Assembly: GCA_003524745.1 (NCBI GenBank)
Contig: DQGN01000037.1
Coordinates: forward strand, 1-18,882
Direction: 5' to 3'
DNA from: Patescibacteria group bacterium
GTDB taxonomy: Bacteria > Patescibacteriota > Kazan-3B-28 > UBA10110
Length of the DNA: 18,882 nt
Shown here: positions 277 through 18,706 of the stretch, piece after piece
Layout: each line of letters starts with the position of its first letter
Position numbering within the stretch: position 1 is the first letter of the stretch
Position numbers and translations under genes: made by a program
The notes under the pieces: generated by a model
What the model was told of the DNA's origin: nothing
The model's input: only the letters and a program-made list of their open reading frames with translations
Database searches by the model: none

Positions 277-304
277 CCGTCATTCTGGCTTGTCCAGAAT
301 CGTA
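277..304. repeat. Family A palindromic repeat copy
   Basis: The sequence runs GTCATTCTGG, a short loop, then CCAGAATCGTAT. The two arms ATTCTGG and CCAGAAT are exact complements. The same element recurs at 18319-18360 and twice at 18643-18706. It sits between the stop codon of the first gene and the 5S rRNA gene. Confidence 0.75.
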
Positions 305-1474: not shown

Positions 1475-1580
1475 TGTCATTCCCGCGCAGGCGGGAATCC
1501 AGACAAAAACAGAATTTTTTTTGTTTTATTTTCTGGGTCCCCGATGTCGGATGGCTTTGCCTCCGACTCGAGGATGACAA
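1475..1580. repeat. Family A repeats in the convergent gap, possible bidirectional terminator
   Basis: The first copy has an 8 bp perfect stem, ATTCCCGC (1479-1486) and GCGGGAAT (1491-1498), inside GTCATTCC...GGAATCCAG. It is followed by T and A runs around 1510-1530. A second, diverged copy ends with CGAGGATGACAAC near 1580, just beyond the comM stop. The T run after the first stem could terminate the plus-strand gene, and the whole gap could end both convergent transcripts. Confidence 0.55.
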
Positions 1581-3138: not shown

Positions 3139-3204
3139 GTCATCCTGAACGCCTGCCTGCCGGTTTACCTGCCGTAGGTGTGGTAGGCAGGGATTCAGGA
3201 TCCG
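3139..3204. repeat. Family A repeat, long form
   Basis: It starts GTCATCCTGAA and ends TTCAGGAT, with an inner imperfect inverted pair (GCCTGCCTGCCGG against GTGGTAGGCAGGG). It lies upstream of comM. Confidence 0.7.
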
Positions 3205-3223
3205 CATTTTTGTTTATTTTCTT

Positions 3224-3254
3224 GTCTGGATTCCGGGTCCAGCCCGGAATGACG
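3224..3254. repeat. Family A repeat copy
   Basis: GTCTGGATTCCGGG, a short loop, then CCCGGAATGACG. The arms ATTCCGGG and CCCGGAAT are complementary. The same arms are found inside the coding copy at 12323-12420. Confidence 0.75.
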
Positions 3255-3304
3255 AAGTGGTGCAAGGGTAAGATAAATTAATTATAGCGTAGATACTGCG
3301 GCAC

Positions 3305-4973: not shown

Positions 4974-4989
4974 AGACCTATTGTATAAC

Positions 4990-5046
4990 ATCCTCCCCAC
5001 CCTGCCTCCCCTTGGAACGTCAGACGTTCCTTGGTAGGGGAGGATG
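4990..5046. repeat. Family B repeat with inner hairpin
   Basis: The outer part is the C-rich to G-rich pair (CCTCCCC ... GGGGAGG). Inside is a perfect 7 bp stem, GGAACGT (5014-5020) and ACGTTCC (5024-5030). It lies against the start of the CapA-like gene and extends that gene's open frame. Confidence 0.75.
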
Positions 5047-5060
5047 AACAAACTAATAAA

Positions 5061-5219
5061 ATTCCCCTCCTGCCCGCTTCGACTCGGAAGCGAGGCGAGC
5101 CAGAGGAGGGGTTAGGGGAGGAATAAATGTGATCCCCTCCTGTCCGAGGAGGGGTTAGGGGAGGAATAAATGTGATCCCCTCCTGCCAGAGGAGGGGTGA
5201 GGGGAGGAGGGAGTATAAA
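5061..5219. repeat. Three tandem family B units, about 43 bp period
   Basis: Each unit has CCCCTCCTG, a few bases, then GAGGAGGGG, followed by GGGGAGGAATAAATGTG in the first two units. The second unit spans 5131-5173 and the third begins at 5174 with the same GATCCCCTCCTG, giving an exact 43 bp step. The first unit (5061-5130) carries an extra hairpin of about 27 bases between its arms. Confidence 0.8.
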
Positions 5220-5249
5220 TTAATCACCCCCCCACCCCAGCATTCGCTT

Positions 5250-5292
5250 CATCTCATTGGAAATAGGTCATTAGCCTCTTCCGATATAGATG
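5250..5292. other. Possible small structured element, unknown
   Basis: CATCT (5250-5254) pairs with AGATG (5288-5292). Inside, GGAA (5259-5262) pairs with TTCC (5279-5282), and AGG (5265-5267) pairs with CCT (5275-5277). The nested order suggests a folded element between two family B copies. It could be part of a longer repeat rather than an RNA. Confidence 0.25.
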
Positions 5293-5310
5293 TCGCTCCG
5301 CGGGGCAGGC

Positions 5311-5360
5311 CTAACCTCCCCTCTGGACGTCGAACGTCCAAAGGGCAGGGGAGGAGTAAG
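5311..5360. repeat. Family B repeat with inner hairpin
   Basis: ACCTCCCCT and AGGGGAGG form the outer arms. The inner perfect stem is TGGACGT (5324-5330) and ACGTCCA (5334-5340). The inner ACGT arms echo those of the copy at 4990-5046. Confidence 0.75.
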
Positions 5361-5364
5361 GATG

Positions 5365-5401
5365 TTAAATTTTTTCTAAGGGATAATATCACGGTTGGAT
5401 A
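5365..5401. other. Near-copy of the argS 3' end
   Basis: Bases 5365-5401 align with 16323-16360, the last codons and stop of argS, with four mismatches and one single-base gap. Shared blocks include ATTTTTTCTAAGGG, ATAAT and GGTTGGATA. It lies 8 bases beyond the stop codon of the 5410-6984 gene. It could be a relic of a small duplication or recombination event; the gap breaks the argS frame. Confidence 0.5.
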
Positions 5402-12109: not shown

Positions 12110-12154
12110 TAACCCCACCCAACCTCCCCTTGACAAGGGGAGGAGAGGAGGGGT
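12110..12154. repeat. Family B repeat between two co-directional genes
   Basis: The core is a perfect 9 bp stem, CCTCCCCTT (12123-12131) and AAGGGGAGG (12135-12143), around GAC, flanked by CCCCACCC and GAGGAGGGG. It starts directly beyond the stop codon of the 12155-13657 gene. It could act as an mRNA 3' hairpin that tunes expression between the two genes. Confidence 0.8.
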
Positions 12155-13657
12155 CTATTCCGGTACTTCTAATTCAAGGCCGGCTTTCAGTTTGAACCCC
12201 GGCTTCAGGCGATTAAATTTGGCTATTTCTTTCCAGGATAATCCGGTAAATTGTTCCACATCTTTGCGGGTATCGCCCGGCTGGATAATGATGGTGTAGC
12301 TAGGTGTCTGGGTGATAACCCCTTTTGTCATTCCGGGCTTGACCCGGAATCCAGACCTAGATCCTGGAGATCCTGAATCGAGTTCAGGATGACGGTTTTG
12401 AGGTCCAGGATGACGAAGGGAAGGGTGAGGTTTCCGAGAAAATAATCTGACGACAGGAGCGAATAAGTAAACCAATATATTAGGAATCGGCAGGATTCTC
12501 CGTTGACCTTGGCTGTCGGGCACATAAATGGTTTTGGTTGTCCCTAAATCATATGGCGGTTTAATTTCGTTGATTTGCGCCAATAATTTCCAATCCACCC
12601 GGTACAAGCCAGCGATTTTCTGCAAAGTGTCAGTTTTTTTAATGCGGTGGCTGACGACCGGAGTTTTAGCTAACCGCATAAACTTTCGCCATTTGTTGAT
12701 CTGCCAGCCGAACCAAGCCAAGAACAGCAAGATGACAAAAACGATCGCTTGAGTATAGGGAATAAAGAAGGTCATCAGATAGACCCGGATGGGTGGGGCG
12801 GGGGCAGTGATTTTATTACTGGGGTTAAGCCCTTCGAAGGTGTCTTGAATATTTAAAATAGCGAGGTAAGGCCCCAGCAAAGGTCGGTTCTTGCCTGGCC
12901 AAATCATTTCGCTAGTTAAGGTCTTTTTAGGGAATATTTGTCCCAGCTCAAAGTTGTCTTTCTTGTCATATAAACCGAATAGGCCATAAATTTTGCCGTT
13001 AGCTTCCAGATTAGCTCGCACATTACCATTGTTGGTCCATTTGAATCGAAAGACCATTTTGGACCCCCTTCCGAACCAAGCTTTGGCTTTAAGTTGCAAA
13101 TCCCGGATGATGTTCCCTTTAACTGTGAGATACATCCTGGCACCGACCCGAGTAGTTACGCCTACCGTGGCCCCCCCGGCATTTATGGTTGCATCTGGTG
13201 TGGTGGTATCTTTTTGGACCGTGATTCCCCCAATATGGTCACCTACCTCTGCATCAACTGGCACCTGAACAGTAAATTTGATGTCCATCTGGGACTTAGG
13301 CGGTAAAGTCAGTTTTTTTTCGGCCAAGGTAATCCATTTGCCAATGTCTTGATTTCTACTTTCATCATCTGTCAGGGCGAAAGACCCGTCTTGAGTTGAA
13401 AATGCATCCAGACCCTCCAGATTAATTTTTAGTTCATTAGAAGAACTGTTAATCACCCTCACCGTATCTTCAATGGTGGTGCCGGGGTCTACTTCGTAGA
13501 CGAACCAGCTACCCTTGATTCTGGATTCCGAGGAATCTGGCGAAGGGGTTACTCCGACGCCACCGGCAGACACTGCCAAAACCGCATTGGGTTGTAATAA
13601 AACAGCCGCTGCCAGTAGTATGAGAATTAAAAATATTTTTTGGTGTTGGCGAAACAT
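12155..13657 (-). CDS. DUF916-like surface protein with one or two membrane segments and two LysM domains
   Basis: 500 aa. Signal peptide at 7-29 (LILLAAAVLLQPNAVLAVSA). Residues 33-180 match the DUF916/WxL-interacting-protein pattern: GVGVTPSPDSSESR, VYEVDPGTTIEDTVRVINSS, DAFSTQDGSF, LTLPPKSQMDIKFTVQVP and GDHIGGI. A second beta domain covers 185-290. A membrane helix (303-320) is followed by basic residues NKWRKFMR. LysM 1 spans 336-380 (HRIKKTDTLQKIAGLY ... TIYVP) and LysM 2 spans 453-500 (IIIQPGDTRKDVEQFTGLSW ... ELEVP). Between them is a weakly hydrophobic stretch (389-405), then about 31 residues (415-445) encoded by a family A repeat (HPELDSGSPGSRSGF, KPGMTK). The function is probably anchoring or holding surface proteins against the wall. 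It begins 15 bases after the GT-C-like gene, with no visible Shine-Dalgarno. Confidence 0.8.
   Translation of the reverse strand: MFRQHQKIFLILILLAAAVLLQPNAVLAVSAGGVGVTPSPDSSESRIKGSWFVYEVDPGTTIEDTVRVINSSSNELKINLEGLDAFSTQDGSFALTDDESRNQDIGKWITLAEKKLTLPPKSQMDIKFTVQVPVDAEVGDHIGGITVQKDTTTPDATINAGGATVGVTTRVGARMYLTVKGNIIRDLQLKAKAWFGRGSKMVFRFKWTNNGNVRANLEANGKIYGLFGLYDKKDNFELGQIFPKKTLTSEMIWPGKNRPLLGPYLAILNIQDTFEGLNPSNKITAPAPPIRVYLMTFFIPYTQAIVFVILLFLAWFGWQINKWRKFMRLAKTPVVSHRIKKTDTLQKIAGLYRVDWKLLAQINEIKPPYDLGTTKTIYVPDSQGQRRILPIPNILVYLFAPVVRLFSRKPHPSLRHPGPQNRHPELDSGSPGSRSGFRVKPGMTKGVITQTPSYTIIIQPGDTRKDVEQFTGLSWKEIAKFNRLKPGFKLKAGLELEVPE
12323..12420. repeat. Family A composite repeat inside a coding sequence
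   Basis: It contains GTCATTCCGGG/CCCGGAAT and TCCTGAA/TTCAGGA inverted pairs, each ending in the family's GTCAT/ATGAC signature. The reading frame passes through it without a stop and translates to residues 415-445 of the DUF916/LysM protein. Confidence 0.85.
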
Positions 13658-13672
13658 AATATTAGTATATCT

Positions 13673-15265
13673 TTATTTTATGTTATTTAAATTGATTTTG
13701 CGATAAATAACACTAATATTATCGTTGTAAACTTTTTCCCAGTCCGATTGTCCCGATAGGGCCCAGTCCAATGGCCGACCGGCTAATACCATTATCCAAT
13801 CCACGCCGTACCTCACTTCTAACAAGCCGATGGCACCGGCTCCGGCTGAAGTGGCATACTGGGTATCGGCAAATACGAATTTATCGCCCATTTGCCAATA
13901 GGGCATCCGACCATCAATAAAAACTTTCTGTTCGGGGAAACGCCAAATCAGAAATCCACCCCAGCCATATTCATTAAACATCTTGGTGCCGATCTTATCG
14001 GGATGGGTTTTAGCCCAGTTAATCGCATCCACCGGATAATATCGCGATTGCCTTAATTGCTCATCTATATTTAAGGCCTGACTATTGTCTAAAATTCTTT
14101 GAGAAATTAGAATGGCGATCAATGCGCAGAACCCGATCAACAACCAGCGGTGGCGGGTGAAGGCATCCCAAGCTAAATGGGTATATTTTTGAATAGTTTC
14201 GGCCAGGAACCCCAAACTGGCTATCATAAAGAATGGCATATTGCGCCAGTAGAGAAATGATAAACCGAGCAAAGCGATCCACAAAGCCCAGCGGGTTGGT
14301 TCGATCTTTCTGTAAGTCAGGATTAACAATATCATTAGCACCACTAAGTAGATGGCAAAGTCATATGCCATGGGTTGGGCCAAGGAAACACTTTGCCACT
14401 CGGAAATGTTGTTAATGGCAAAGGGATTGGTAAATAATTTGTAGAAATCATAATGTAATCCCCAGCCGTAAGGATTGATCAAAGTAATCAAGCCGGAGAG
14501 CAGACCTACTGTTAGCAGATGTTTGATTTGGGGAAAGGTCAGCGTGGTTTCGGTGATGCGCATTTTTTTGTACCACTTAGGCCAAATGGTAGCGGTAGTG
14601 TATTTGATGGTTTCCATTAGCCACCAAATTGCTAAAATAACAAAACCGATCAAAAATCCACCGTGCAGATTGGCCCACAGCAAAAAAATTAACGGCAAGT
14701 ACCAGAGATGGGTCAACTGCTTTTGTTGATAACGGGTTAGTAACCATAAAACAGTGCTCATCAAGAGTAGGGTAATCATTTGCATGCGTACTCCCAAGAT
14801 CGGCAGAGCGGCCAGCAGACCGATCAGGGCGGCGATAATTTTATAACGCAGTTCTACTTTGGAGAGGGAGGCCGCGAGCAGAAAAGTCCCGGCGATGAGG
14901 CCAGAAAATAATAAGCCCAACACTAATGGCCCCAGCCATTGATAAATTAGAGCCATTAAGCCGTCAGATAACCATTCATGGTTAACCCATGGCCAGTCGG
15001 GGAGGGTATAAGAATAAATATCCAGTTTGGGGACCGACCAATTTTTTAAGAGGTCTATCCCGGAGCGAAGATGCCAACCGAAATCCGGGTCCAGCAAGGG
15101 TCTAAAACCTAAAGTGAATAGTAACAGCAACAATAGCCGCTCGAAGATACCGATACCGGCAACCCCACCTACACCTCCCCTTGGTAAGGGGAAGGAGGGA
15201 GGGGGGAGTTTACGAATATTATTAATGAGAAAAGCGAATAAAGACACCCTGGAAGATTTAGGCAT
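13673..15265 (-). CDS. Polytopic GT-C-like glycosyltransferase, putative
   Basis: 530 aa with about ten membrane helices. The first extracellular loop carries DPDFGWHLRSG (59-69), followed by PKLDIYSYTLPDWPWVNHEWL (79-99), a layout seen in GT-C fold glycosyltransferases that use polyprenyl-phosphate sugars, with acidic residues in loop 1. The C-terminal soluble part (about 410-530) has FNEYGWGGFLIWRFPEQKVF and FIDGRMPYW. The substrate cannot be told. Residues 20-34 (PPPSFPLPRGGVGG) are encoded by a family B repeat placed between the cytoplasmic N-terminus and the first helix. No later ATG precedes the first helix, so these residues are probably translated. It ends 15 bases before the DUF916/LysM gene, suggesting an operon. 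Confidence 0.65.
   Translation of the reverse strand: MPKSSRVSLFAFLINNIRKLPPPSFPLPRGGVGGVAGIGIFERLLLLLLFTLGFRPLLDPDFGWHLRSGIDLLKNWSVPKLDIYSYTLPDWPWVNHEWLSDGLMALIYQWLGPLVLGLLFSGLIAGTFLLAASLSKVELRYKIIAALIGLLAALPILGVRMQMITLLLMSTVLWLLTRYQQKQLTHLWYLPLIFLLWANLHGGFLIGFVILAIWWLMETIKYTTATIWPKWYKKMRITETTLTFPQIKHLLTVGLLSGLITLINPYGWGLHYDFYKLFTNPFAINNISEWQSVSLAQPMAYDFAIYLVVLMILLILTYRKIEPTRWALWIALLGLSFLYWRNMPFFMIASLGFLAETIQKYTHLAWDAFTRHRWLLIGFCALIAILISQRILDNSQALNIDEQLRQSRYYPVDAINWAKTHPDKIGTKMFNEYGWGGFLIWRFPEQKVFIDGRMPYWQMGDKFVFADTQYATSAGAGAIGLLEVRYGVDWIMVLAGRPLDWALSGQSDWEKVYNDNISVIYRKINLNNIK
15161..15208. repeat. Family B repeat inside a coding sequence
   Basis: CCCCACCTACACCTCCCCTT and AAGGGGAAGGAGGGAGG form the usual C-rich to G-rich pair. 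The GT-C-like reading frame runs through it and yields a Pro/Gly-rich insert near its N-terminus. Confidence 0.8.
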
Positions 15266-15334
15266 AGACTAAGTCGTTATAAGTTAAAAATATCATTTAA
15301 TAACAGTTTTACATAGTAAAAAATAACTCCCGCC

Positions 15335-15428
15335 GTCATCCTGAACTCGTTTCAGGATTTTTACAAAGATGCTGAACTTCGTCCGTCGCTCTGCGAGCTA
15401 TGGAGGACTGATGTAAATTCAGCATGAC
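15335..15428. repeat. Family A repeats between the WxL-like and GT-C-like genes
   Basis: One copy starts GTCATCCTGAACTCG and closes TTTCAGGAT (15336-15358), with a T-rich stretch on the minus-strand side that might terminate the upstream transcript. A second, diverged copy has GATGCTGAAC and TTCAGCATGACGC arms (15369-15430). Confidence 0.65.
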
Positions 15429-18268: not shown

Positions 18269-18631
18269 CTAAACCACCCCACCCAACCTCCCCTTACTAA
18301 GGGGAGGAGAGGAGGGGTCGTCATTCTGGGGAGCCTTCCAAGGCGACTCCAGAATCGTATAAGATAAATCTTCCATCATTGGGTTCATTCTTCTGATTAG
18401 TCTTATTTTATCATCTCGGTTCATATCCTTGATTTGTTTTTCTCTGATGATTGCTTGCATAATCTCATCAAAAACTTCGTAGTACACTAATTTATGACAC
18501 AAATACTTGGCAGTAAATCCGGGTATAAGATTATGTTGGTGTTTATACACTCTTTGAGTTAGATTGCTAGTCACTCCCACATACAAAGTTGGCCGATTAT
18601 TAGCCATAATGTAGGTGTATCCACTTTTCAT
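18269..18631 (-). CDS. Single-domain GIY-YIG nuclease with repeat-encoded C-terminal tail
   Basis: 120 aa. The first 90 or so residues are the small GIY-YIG family domain (UPF0213/UvrC N-terminal-like). YTYIM (5-9) and LYVGVT (16-21) stand for the GIY and YIG strands, followed by Arg in LTQRVYKH, Glu in AIIREKQIK, and NPMMEDLS at the end, all family landmarks. The last 30 residues are not natural domain: 91-105 come from a family A repeat (ESPWKAPQNDD) and 106-120 plus the stop codon from a family B repeat (PSSPPLSKGRLGGVV). Two more family A copies lie directly upstream and a TATAAT sits 7 bases before the ATG. The role is unknown; DNA strand cleavage is expected from family. Confidence 0.88.
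   Translation of the reverse strand: MKSGYTYIMANNRPTLYVGVTSNLTQRVYKHQHNLIPGFTAKYLCHKLVYYEVFDEIMQAIIREKQIKDMNRDDKIRLIRRMNPMMEDLSYTILESPWKAPQNDDPSSPPLSKGRLGGVV
18274..18319. repeat. Family B repeat at the end of the GIY-YIG gene
   Basis: A perfect 9 bp stem, CCTCCCCTT (18287-18295) and AAGGGGAGG (18299-18307), flanked by CCACCCCACCC and GAGGAGGGG. It is nearly identical to 12110-12154 apart from the loop. Confidence 0.85.
18319..18360. repeat. Family A repeat inside the GIY-YIG reading frame
   Basis: CGTCATTCTGG ... CCAGAATCGTATAA, with arms ATTCTGG and CCAGAAT, placed end to end with the family B copy. Confidence 0.8.
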
Positions 18632-18643: not shown

Positions 18644-18706
18644 CGATTCTGGACGAGGCCAGAATGACGGAGAAGAGGATTCTGGACGAGCCAGAATGAC
18701 GGAGCA
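18643..18706. repeat. Two tandem family A repeat copies
   Basis: GATTCTGGACGAG, then CCAGAATGACGGAG, occurs twice in a row (18645-18673 and 18679-18704) with small differences. Confidence 0.8.

Follow-up and report, generated by a model that had tools for sequence, protein, structure and literature searches.

The closest described relatives of the repeat reported here are the CGTC-tagged REPs, which carry a CGTC, TGTC, or CCTC tag, an 8- to 9-bp stem beginning with AT, a loop of 4 to 5 nucleotides, and a CCA-like tail, and which are organized mostly as opposed dimers (Di Nocera et al. 2013, PMC3733652). That paper includes in this class RPE-4 (CGTC-4) and RPE-6 (CGTC-1) of Rickettsia conorii, as well as the dRS3 repeats of Neisseria, and describes intragenic members in several species, more than half of which are dimers or groups encoding 20 to 30 residues. 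An earlier note on the DNA analyzed here placed in-frame palindromic elements in Rickettsia and Wolbachia; this stands for RPE-4 and RPE-6, but the phenomenon is not confined to them, given the several species reported in PMC3733652. The same paper leaves the mobilizer of CGTC REPs open, with no dedicated transposase known in 2013, and the words 'GIY' and 'candidate' are absent from its text.

REPINs and RAYT REPtrons are built on a similar plan, in that an inverted hairpin pair forms a short non-autonomous unit and the nuclease gene is flanked by the same hairpins; they employ a Y1 transposase and a GTAG tag, whereas the system described below has a GIY-YIG nuclease and a CGTC tag. GIY-YIG proteins are known as homing endonucleases, and those of the I-TevI type share the GIY-YIG domain with its conserved Y, R, E, and N, but the gene described here differs in being very small (∼95 residues), stand-alone, and bracketed by REPs. 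In Moraxella catarrhalis, RayT and GIY-YIG are represented by separate clade-specific genes (PMC9465073). None of the literature matches listed concerns GIY-YIG genes with CGTC REPs, an absence that is unproven since preprints and most subscription papers lay outside the search.

The window (the whole 18,882-nucleotide stretch of Patescibacteria DNA analyzed) codes for a surface protein with WxLIP_PGBD (5.6e-14) and LysM (1.7e-11) domains as identified with Pfam, and a palindromic composite lies within its gene at 12327-12414, with the reading frame open throughout, as the earlier note had described (coordinates are in the table). The composite comprises two CGTC-tagged REPs as a doublet, and a third hairpin is nested in the loop of one of them. 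REP-A, REP-B, and REP-C each start with GTCAT and have a mismatch-free 8-bp stem beginning with AT, the full tag being TGTC in REP-A and CGTC in the other two, and REP-B has a loop of 35 because REP-C is nested inside it. On the coding strand the insert reads RHPGPQNRHPELDSGSPGSRSGFRVKPGMT (residues 415-444). The addition of ∼31 residues between two LysM domains is likewise borne out: the first LysM domain is at residues 337-371 in the whole-protein Pfam search, and the C-terminal 51 residues, which give no separate stretch in that search, score as LysM (4.1e-5) when searched alone, so the insert sits between two LysM domains.

Features of the window discussed in the text
Feature	Coordinates	Strand	Remarks
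Dispersed REP, ATTCTGG family	279..300	+	Family flanking the GIY-YIG gene; hairpin detector
Dispersed REP, ATTCCCGC type	1476..1498	+	Hairpin detector
Intergenic REP	3139..3201	+	Partner of 3230-3253 in outward-facing pair; loose detector only
Intergenic REP-A-type copy	3230..3253	−	Repeat comparison and hairpin detector
WxLIP/DUF916 and LysM surface protein ORF	12155..13657	−	500 aa; insert at residues 415-444
REP-A	12327..12350	+	GTC tag; 8-bp stem, 0 mismatches, loop 5; residues 436-444
REP-B, outer hairpin with REP-C in its loop	12361..12414	−	Stem 8, 0 mismatches, loop 35; residues 415-433
REP-C, nested in REP-B	12370..12393	−	Stem 8, 0 mismatches, loop 5; residues 422-430
Intergenic REP-C-type copy	15335..15358	+	Repeat comparison and hairpin detector
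Small GIY-YIG nuclease ORF	18269..18631	−	120 aa; 3' end runs into REP; Pfam GIY-YIG 1.5e-12
REP at 3' side of GIY-YIG gene	18320..18355	+	Tag outward; 1 mismatch, loop 17
REP at 5' side of GIY-YIG gene	18646..18668	−	Tag outward; 1 mismatch
Second REP at 5' side of GIY-YIG gene	18679..18700	−	1 mismatch

The composite has the features of CGTC REPs: the tag, stems that start with AT, a stem of 8 with a loop of 5 in REP-A and REP-C, multiple copies, and opposed dimers, and it also shares the tail and the ORF-internal copies described for the class (PMC3733652). RPE-4 and RPE-6 of Rickettsia are likewise CGTC-type repeats translated in frame in conserved genes; they belong to another lineage, and the likeness is one of class features. 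A trait of RPE-type elements is also seen here, in that the repeat lies in frame in functional genes and is absent from orthologues, and the in-frame doublet is thus a new lineage for a known phenomenon. NCBIfam holds RPE models, and none of these matched the four insert-bearing proteins searched. The best explanation is that the insert would be translated as part of the LysM protein, because the frame is kept and the hairpins, read in this direction and phase, contain no stop codon. Insertion into a linker is consistent with selection for a tolerated site.

Comparison with orthologues shows that the REP-like linker residues are present in four of 30 aligned rows (the window protein, P0002, P0003, and P0004) and absent from the other 26, which include P0005, the insert-free sister of insert-bearing P0004. 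The alignment comprises the window protein and P0002-P0030, drawn from 38 homologues, with the 99% identical P0001 and P0031-P0038 left out. Of the five best orthologous loci of the window, three are in Kazan-group records and two elsewhere in Patescibacteria, which puts the window's genome near candidate division Kazan. On a tree of the part preceding the linker, the insert requires two changes. P0002 and P0004 have by eye nearly identical C-terminal LysM parts on cores that are only about half identical, so that recombination at the 3' end of this surface protein gene is as likely as two insertions.

The composite is assembled from parts that recur in the window as intergenic DNA, as had been claimed, but this applies to the parts and not to the whole: REP-A recurs at 3224-3256 (94% over 33 nucleotides) and REP-C at 15333-15358 (96% over 26 nucleotides), and the full composite has no second copy in the window. 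A pair of REPs of the same types as in the composite faces outward at 3139-3253. The hairpin detector reports 10 matches with a GTC tag in the window and two in its reversed sequence. In 400 kb of relatives (20 stretches from four Kazan-group genomes), the GTC tag gives 82 hairpins, above what chance would produce: five other tags give 16, 2, 23, 15, and 14, and the reversed sequence gives 14. Among 25 close REP pairs in these 400 kb, 20 face outward, which is also the orientation of the GIY-YIG gene flanks, five face the same direction, and none face inward. A tighter REP pattern has six, 17, and five copies in genomes G001, G002, and G004, respectively, and none in G003, G005, and G006, with a single match in the backward control across all six. 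At the places listed for it, the doublets in G064 have a start-to-start spacing of 43 to 47 bases, mostly 45, as expected of one mobile unit.

The window has other repeats and RNA features. A second palindromic family, CCTCCCCTT-N3-AAGGGGAGG, is present at 12112-12154, 15173-15204, 18276-18318, and 4980-5400; it includes a 43-bp tandem array at 5099-5208, and one copy overlaps the predicted start of the ORF at 13673-15265. At the Rfam gathering threshold, the only match in the window is a 5S rRNA at 330-445.

Copies inside reading frames, which the earlier note had proposed to count, are present in other genes of the lineage; genomic copies were counted in the genomes of relatives. Of 80 non-nested hairpins in the 400-kb set, 53 are intergenic or at gene edges, 20 fall within ORFs of 150 residues or more, and seven are elsewhere. 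By inspection, eight of the 20 ORF-interior hairpins form four doublets, located in TrmD and LeuRS of G004 and in a class I synthetase of G002 and of G008, and a further one is a one-sided MnmA case (L130). The remaining 11 resemble chance palindromes in native coding sequence on inspection and were left out of the insertion count. Opposite the LeuRS insert of G004, the best solved match, itself a LeuRS, has a gap of 18 residues. The synthetase doublets of G002 and G008 are at the same site; the best solved match of the G002 copy is an IleRS, to which the alignment is loose around the REP insert.

Among 33 loci collected with REP patterns, with domains identified by Pfam, the TrmD genes of G001 and G004 (L032 and L033) share the position of an in-frame REP, MnmA (L038) contains two REP-like inserts, and two reverse transcriptases (L026 and L031) have a REP inside the gene. 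The TrmD insert of L032 comprises residues 76-103 and falls between blocks ending at 79 and starting at 82 of the solved chains, these being the best two solved matches among the matches listed. In both reverse transcriptases the in-frame REP is at a similar position, just ahead of the GMPLGN motif. Two loci in which the REP precedes the enzyme domain (L043) or the ribosomal L10 domain (L027) may represent untranslated upstream DNA, and L044, in which the REP lies in an ORF that has no Pfam domain and resembles by eye the window ORF at 13673-15265, was left out of the insertion count.

The window also codes for a small GIY-YIG nuclease flanked by outward-facing REPs. Residues Y17, R27, E64, and N83, which we take to be the catalytic positions, are kept in all 34 aligned GIY-YIG sequences. 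Small GIY-YIG genes in the Kazan group number 58, of which 11 have a strict REP within 500 bp and eight have strict REPs on both sides, outward in all eight; the long-ORF GIY-YIG genes, presumably UvrC, have a REP nearby in two of nine cases and on both sides in none (strict detector). Association with any GIY-YIG gene can therefore be set aside, since most of the small ones are unbracketed, and the linkage is with a close subfamily: with the loose detector, 12 of 16 close relatives of the window's gene are bracketed versus one of 42 other small GIY-YIG genes, the bracketed exception (L063) belonging to G009, a genome outside the 116-genome set described below. Seven small Kazan-group GIY-YIG genes (L057, L058, L062, L068, L071, L074, and L082) adjoin tRNA-like sequences by eye and are unbracketed. 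As a point against this link, the in-frame REPs (ATTCCGG and ATCCTG types) differ in family from the REPs at the window's GIY-YIG gene (ATTCTGG); REPs of the REP-A type do, however, flank a GIY-YIG gene of G070 (L171).

A search of 116 Patescibacteria genomes identified GIY-YIG relatives (E ≤ 1e-6) in 47 and the REP pattern in 51. The pattern is present in 32 of 34 genomes with a GIY-YIG relative at E ≤ 1e-14 (median, 16 matches) versus 19 of 82 others (median, 0), a genome-level association with a Fisher value of 4e-13 in a test that ignores shared ancestry. Against the association, five of the 32 genomes with at least four REP matches have no GIY-YIG relative at E ≤ 1e-6, namely, G001 (27 matches), G016 (21), G020 (16), G048 (9), and G100 (4). 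Outward REPs lie within 160 bp on both sides of 20 of 30 GIY-YIG-relative loci (one per genome) across Patescibacteria, compared with two of 4,000 random placements, which were made in four Kazan-group genomes and not in the 30 genomes tested. The other 10 loci fail the bracketing test as coded, and some of them resemble sequence variants by eye. At four loci (L143, L147, L152, and L157) the interval from the inner REP edge to the GIY-YIG start codon holds, by eye, a TATAAT-like box, which suggests that the unit may have a built-in promoter. A number of the GIY-YIG relatives in this search have in-frame stops, as expected of decaying mobile genes.

Related genes are also found in other phyla. 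A tblastn search of plasmid records matched 33, of which 23 are from Rhizobium, Sphingobium, Sinorhizobium, and Shinella and the remainder include Neisseria, Azospirillum, and Aeromonas; the equivalent search of phages gave no GIY-YIG match. Eight of 17 named loci examined among the 33 records are bracketed according to the loose detector, at close range in Rhizobium CIAT894, Neorhizobium, Aeromonas, Azospirillum, and two Shinella, and by doublets further out in Planktothrix and Spirosoma. Random placements were bracketed in none of 5,000 cases in each of three named records. The other nine loci fail the test as coded, and some resemble variants by eye: those of Sinorhizobium meliloti and Shinella HZN7 miss it by one base, and GTCACC or GTCGCC versions are seen in Sphingobium and Novosphingobium. 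Neisseria gonorrhoeae has REPs near its GIY-YIG gene in a different arrangement, and no REPs were seen at the Photobacterium and Sphingomonas GIY-YIG loci.

In whole-record counts, REPs at the GIY-YIG gene account for seven of 10 pattern matches in Rhizobium CIAT894 (within ∼1.7 kb) and three of 10 in both Shinella WSC3-e and Azospirillum lipoferum, where the rest are mostly dispersed copies. The REP-GIY unit of A. lipoferum lies between sufB and sufC and is absent there in the five relatives compared, and the unit of Shinella PSBB067, with a different REP sequence, is right behind the sufB stop codon, sufB and sufC having been assigned by similarity search in this unannotated record. These two alphaproteobacterial genera (L180 and L217) have a REP-bracketed GIY-YIG gene at the same sufB-sufC place with different REP sequences. 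The Azospirillum spacers have diverged, so no exact junction or target-site duplication is definable, and no other record covers the Rhizobium CIAT894 site, which was sought for target duplication.

In-frame REP doublets are present in this lineage, and one GIY-YIG subfamily is tightly linked with CGTC REPs, making the small GIY-YIG gene a candidate for the machinery that spreads these repeats. We infer that the GIY-YIG protein mobilizes the hairpins and that the LysM-gene doublet represents a non-autonomous copy of a GIY-YIG element. In this minimal mobile element, the small nuclease gene would lie between an outward REP and an inverted one, and doublets would be its short non-autonomous forms. 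Recognition of the tagged hairpins by the nuclease would promote the copying of these hairpins to new sites, a role for CGTC REPs equivalent to the one proposed for RAYT transposases with GTAG REPs. At the LysM locus, a doublet with one further REP nested in it would have inserted into the linker between the two LysM domains. The LysM protein would survive because only insertions accepted by an exposed linker or loop would be retained. It is reasonably probable that the LysM doublet is both a translated linker insertion and a non-autonomous form of a REP/GIY-YIG/inverted-REP element whose nuclease promotes copying. We lean only slightly toward the broader proposal of a widespread element whose GIY-YIG nuclease is the dedicated mobilizer of CGTC REPs, with these repeats, Rickettsia-type in-frame elements and dRS3-like repeats among them, as its short non-autonomous forms. 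The full element in this broader proposal, held with the same cautious preference, would be ∼400 bp and be composed of a REP, a promoter, a ∼95-residue GIY-YIG nuclease, and an inverted REP.

In the main rival explanation, which we consider unlikely, the protein is a stand-alone homing nuclease of the GIY-YIG type, REPs already in place serve as its target or landing site, and the REPs, including the in-frame one, are spread by other means. The established role of GIY-YIG proteins in homing fits this explanation, as do the 19 of 82 genomes with REPs and no close GIY-YIG relative and the nesting of REP-C in REP-B, which suggests that REPs can serve as insertion sites. However, strict REPs on both sides of the gene are invariably outward (8/8), and Neorhizobium (1.76 Mb) has four pattern matches, among which the only two good hairpins are the GIY-YIG flanks. 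Similarly, S. meliloti (3.7 Mb) has 12 matches, three of which belong to the flanking family and cluster 5' of the gene within ∼340 bases, two of them identical and one with one change, with one related shorter hairpin elsewhere. These counts suggest that the REPs in both replicons travel with the gene and are not an abundant prior target.

It is very unlikely that the doublets are old, immobile structural RNA or DNA elements spread by template switching or recombination, with the in-frame copies as relics and the GIY-YIG link as hitchhiking. Some copies are indeed old, as shown by the shared sites in TrmD (G001 and G004) and IleRS (G002 and G008), and the C-termini of P0002 and P0004 suggest spread by recombination, but against this explanation stand the specific linkage to one GIY-YIG subfamily in both Patescibacteria and Proteobacteria and the fact that close Azospirillum species differ in whether the suf junction carries the unit. 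That RAYT (Y1_Tnp) transposases, the proposed mobilizers of GTAG REPs, also mobilize the CGTC REPs of this phylum is disfavored and seems highly improbable. The Y1_Tnp domain is present in 54 of the 116 genomes, and its association with REPs is weak (at least four matches in 21 of 54 genomes with Y1 versus 11 of 62 without; P = 0.013), but it is missing from G001 to G006, including REP-bearing G001, G002, and G004, and of 20 Y1_Tnp genes chosen from REP-bearing genomes, none is bracketed by CGTC REPs and one has any REP nearby. That ordinary conserved protein sequence makes up the 30 residues and resembles the repeat by chance has a negligible probability and is refuted by their absence from 26 of 30 rows, the three mismatch-free 8-bp hairpins, and the related copies in intergenic DNA, with no point found in its favor; the conserved, non-repetitive orthologues or lack of other copies that the earlier note had named as grounds for rejection were not what was found.

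The copies in TrmD, MnmA, and aminoacyl-tRNA synthetases show that these small-genome bacteria retain REP insertions in core translation genes. If the GIY-YIG nuclease does spread CGTC REPs, it would represent a second, unrelated solution beside that of RAYT and GTAG REPs, and one whose cargo can become fixed inside essential proteins. The presence of a REP-bracketed nuclease gene in both Patescibacteria and Proteobacteria makes the question of the CGTC-REP mobilizer testable in soil bacteria.
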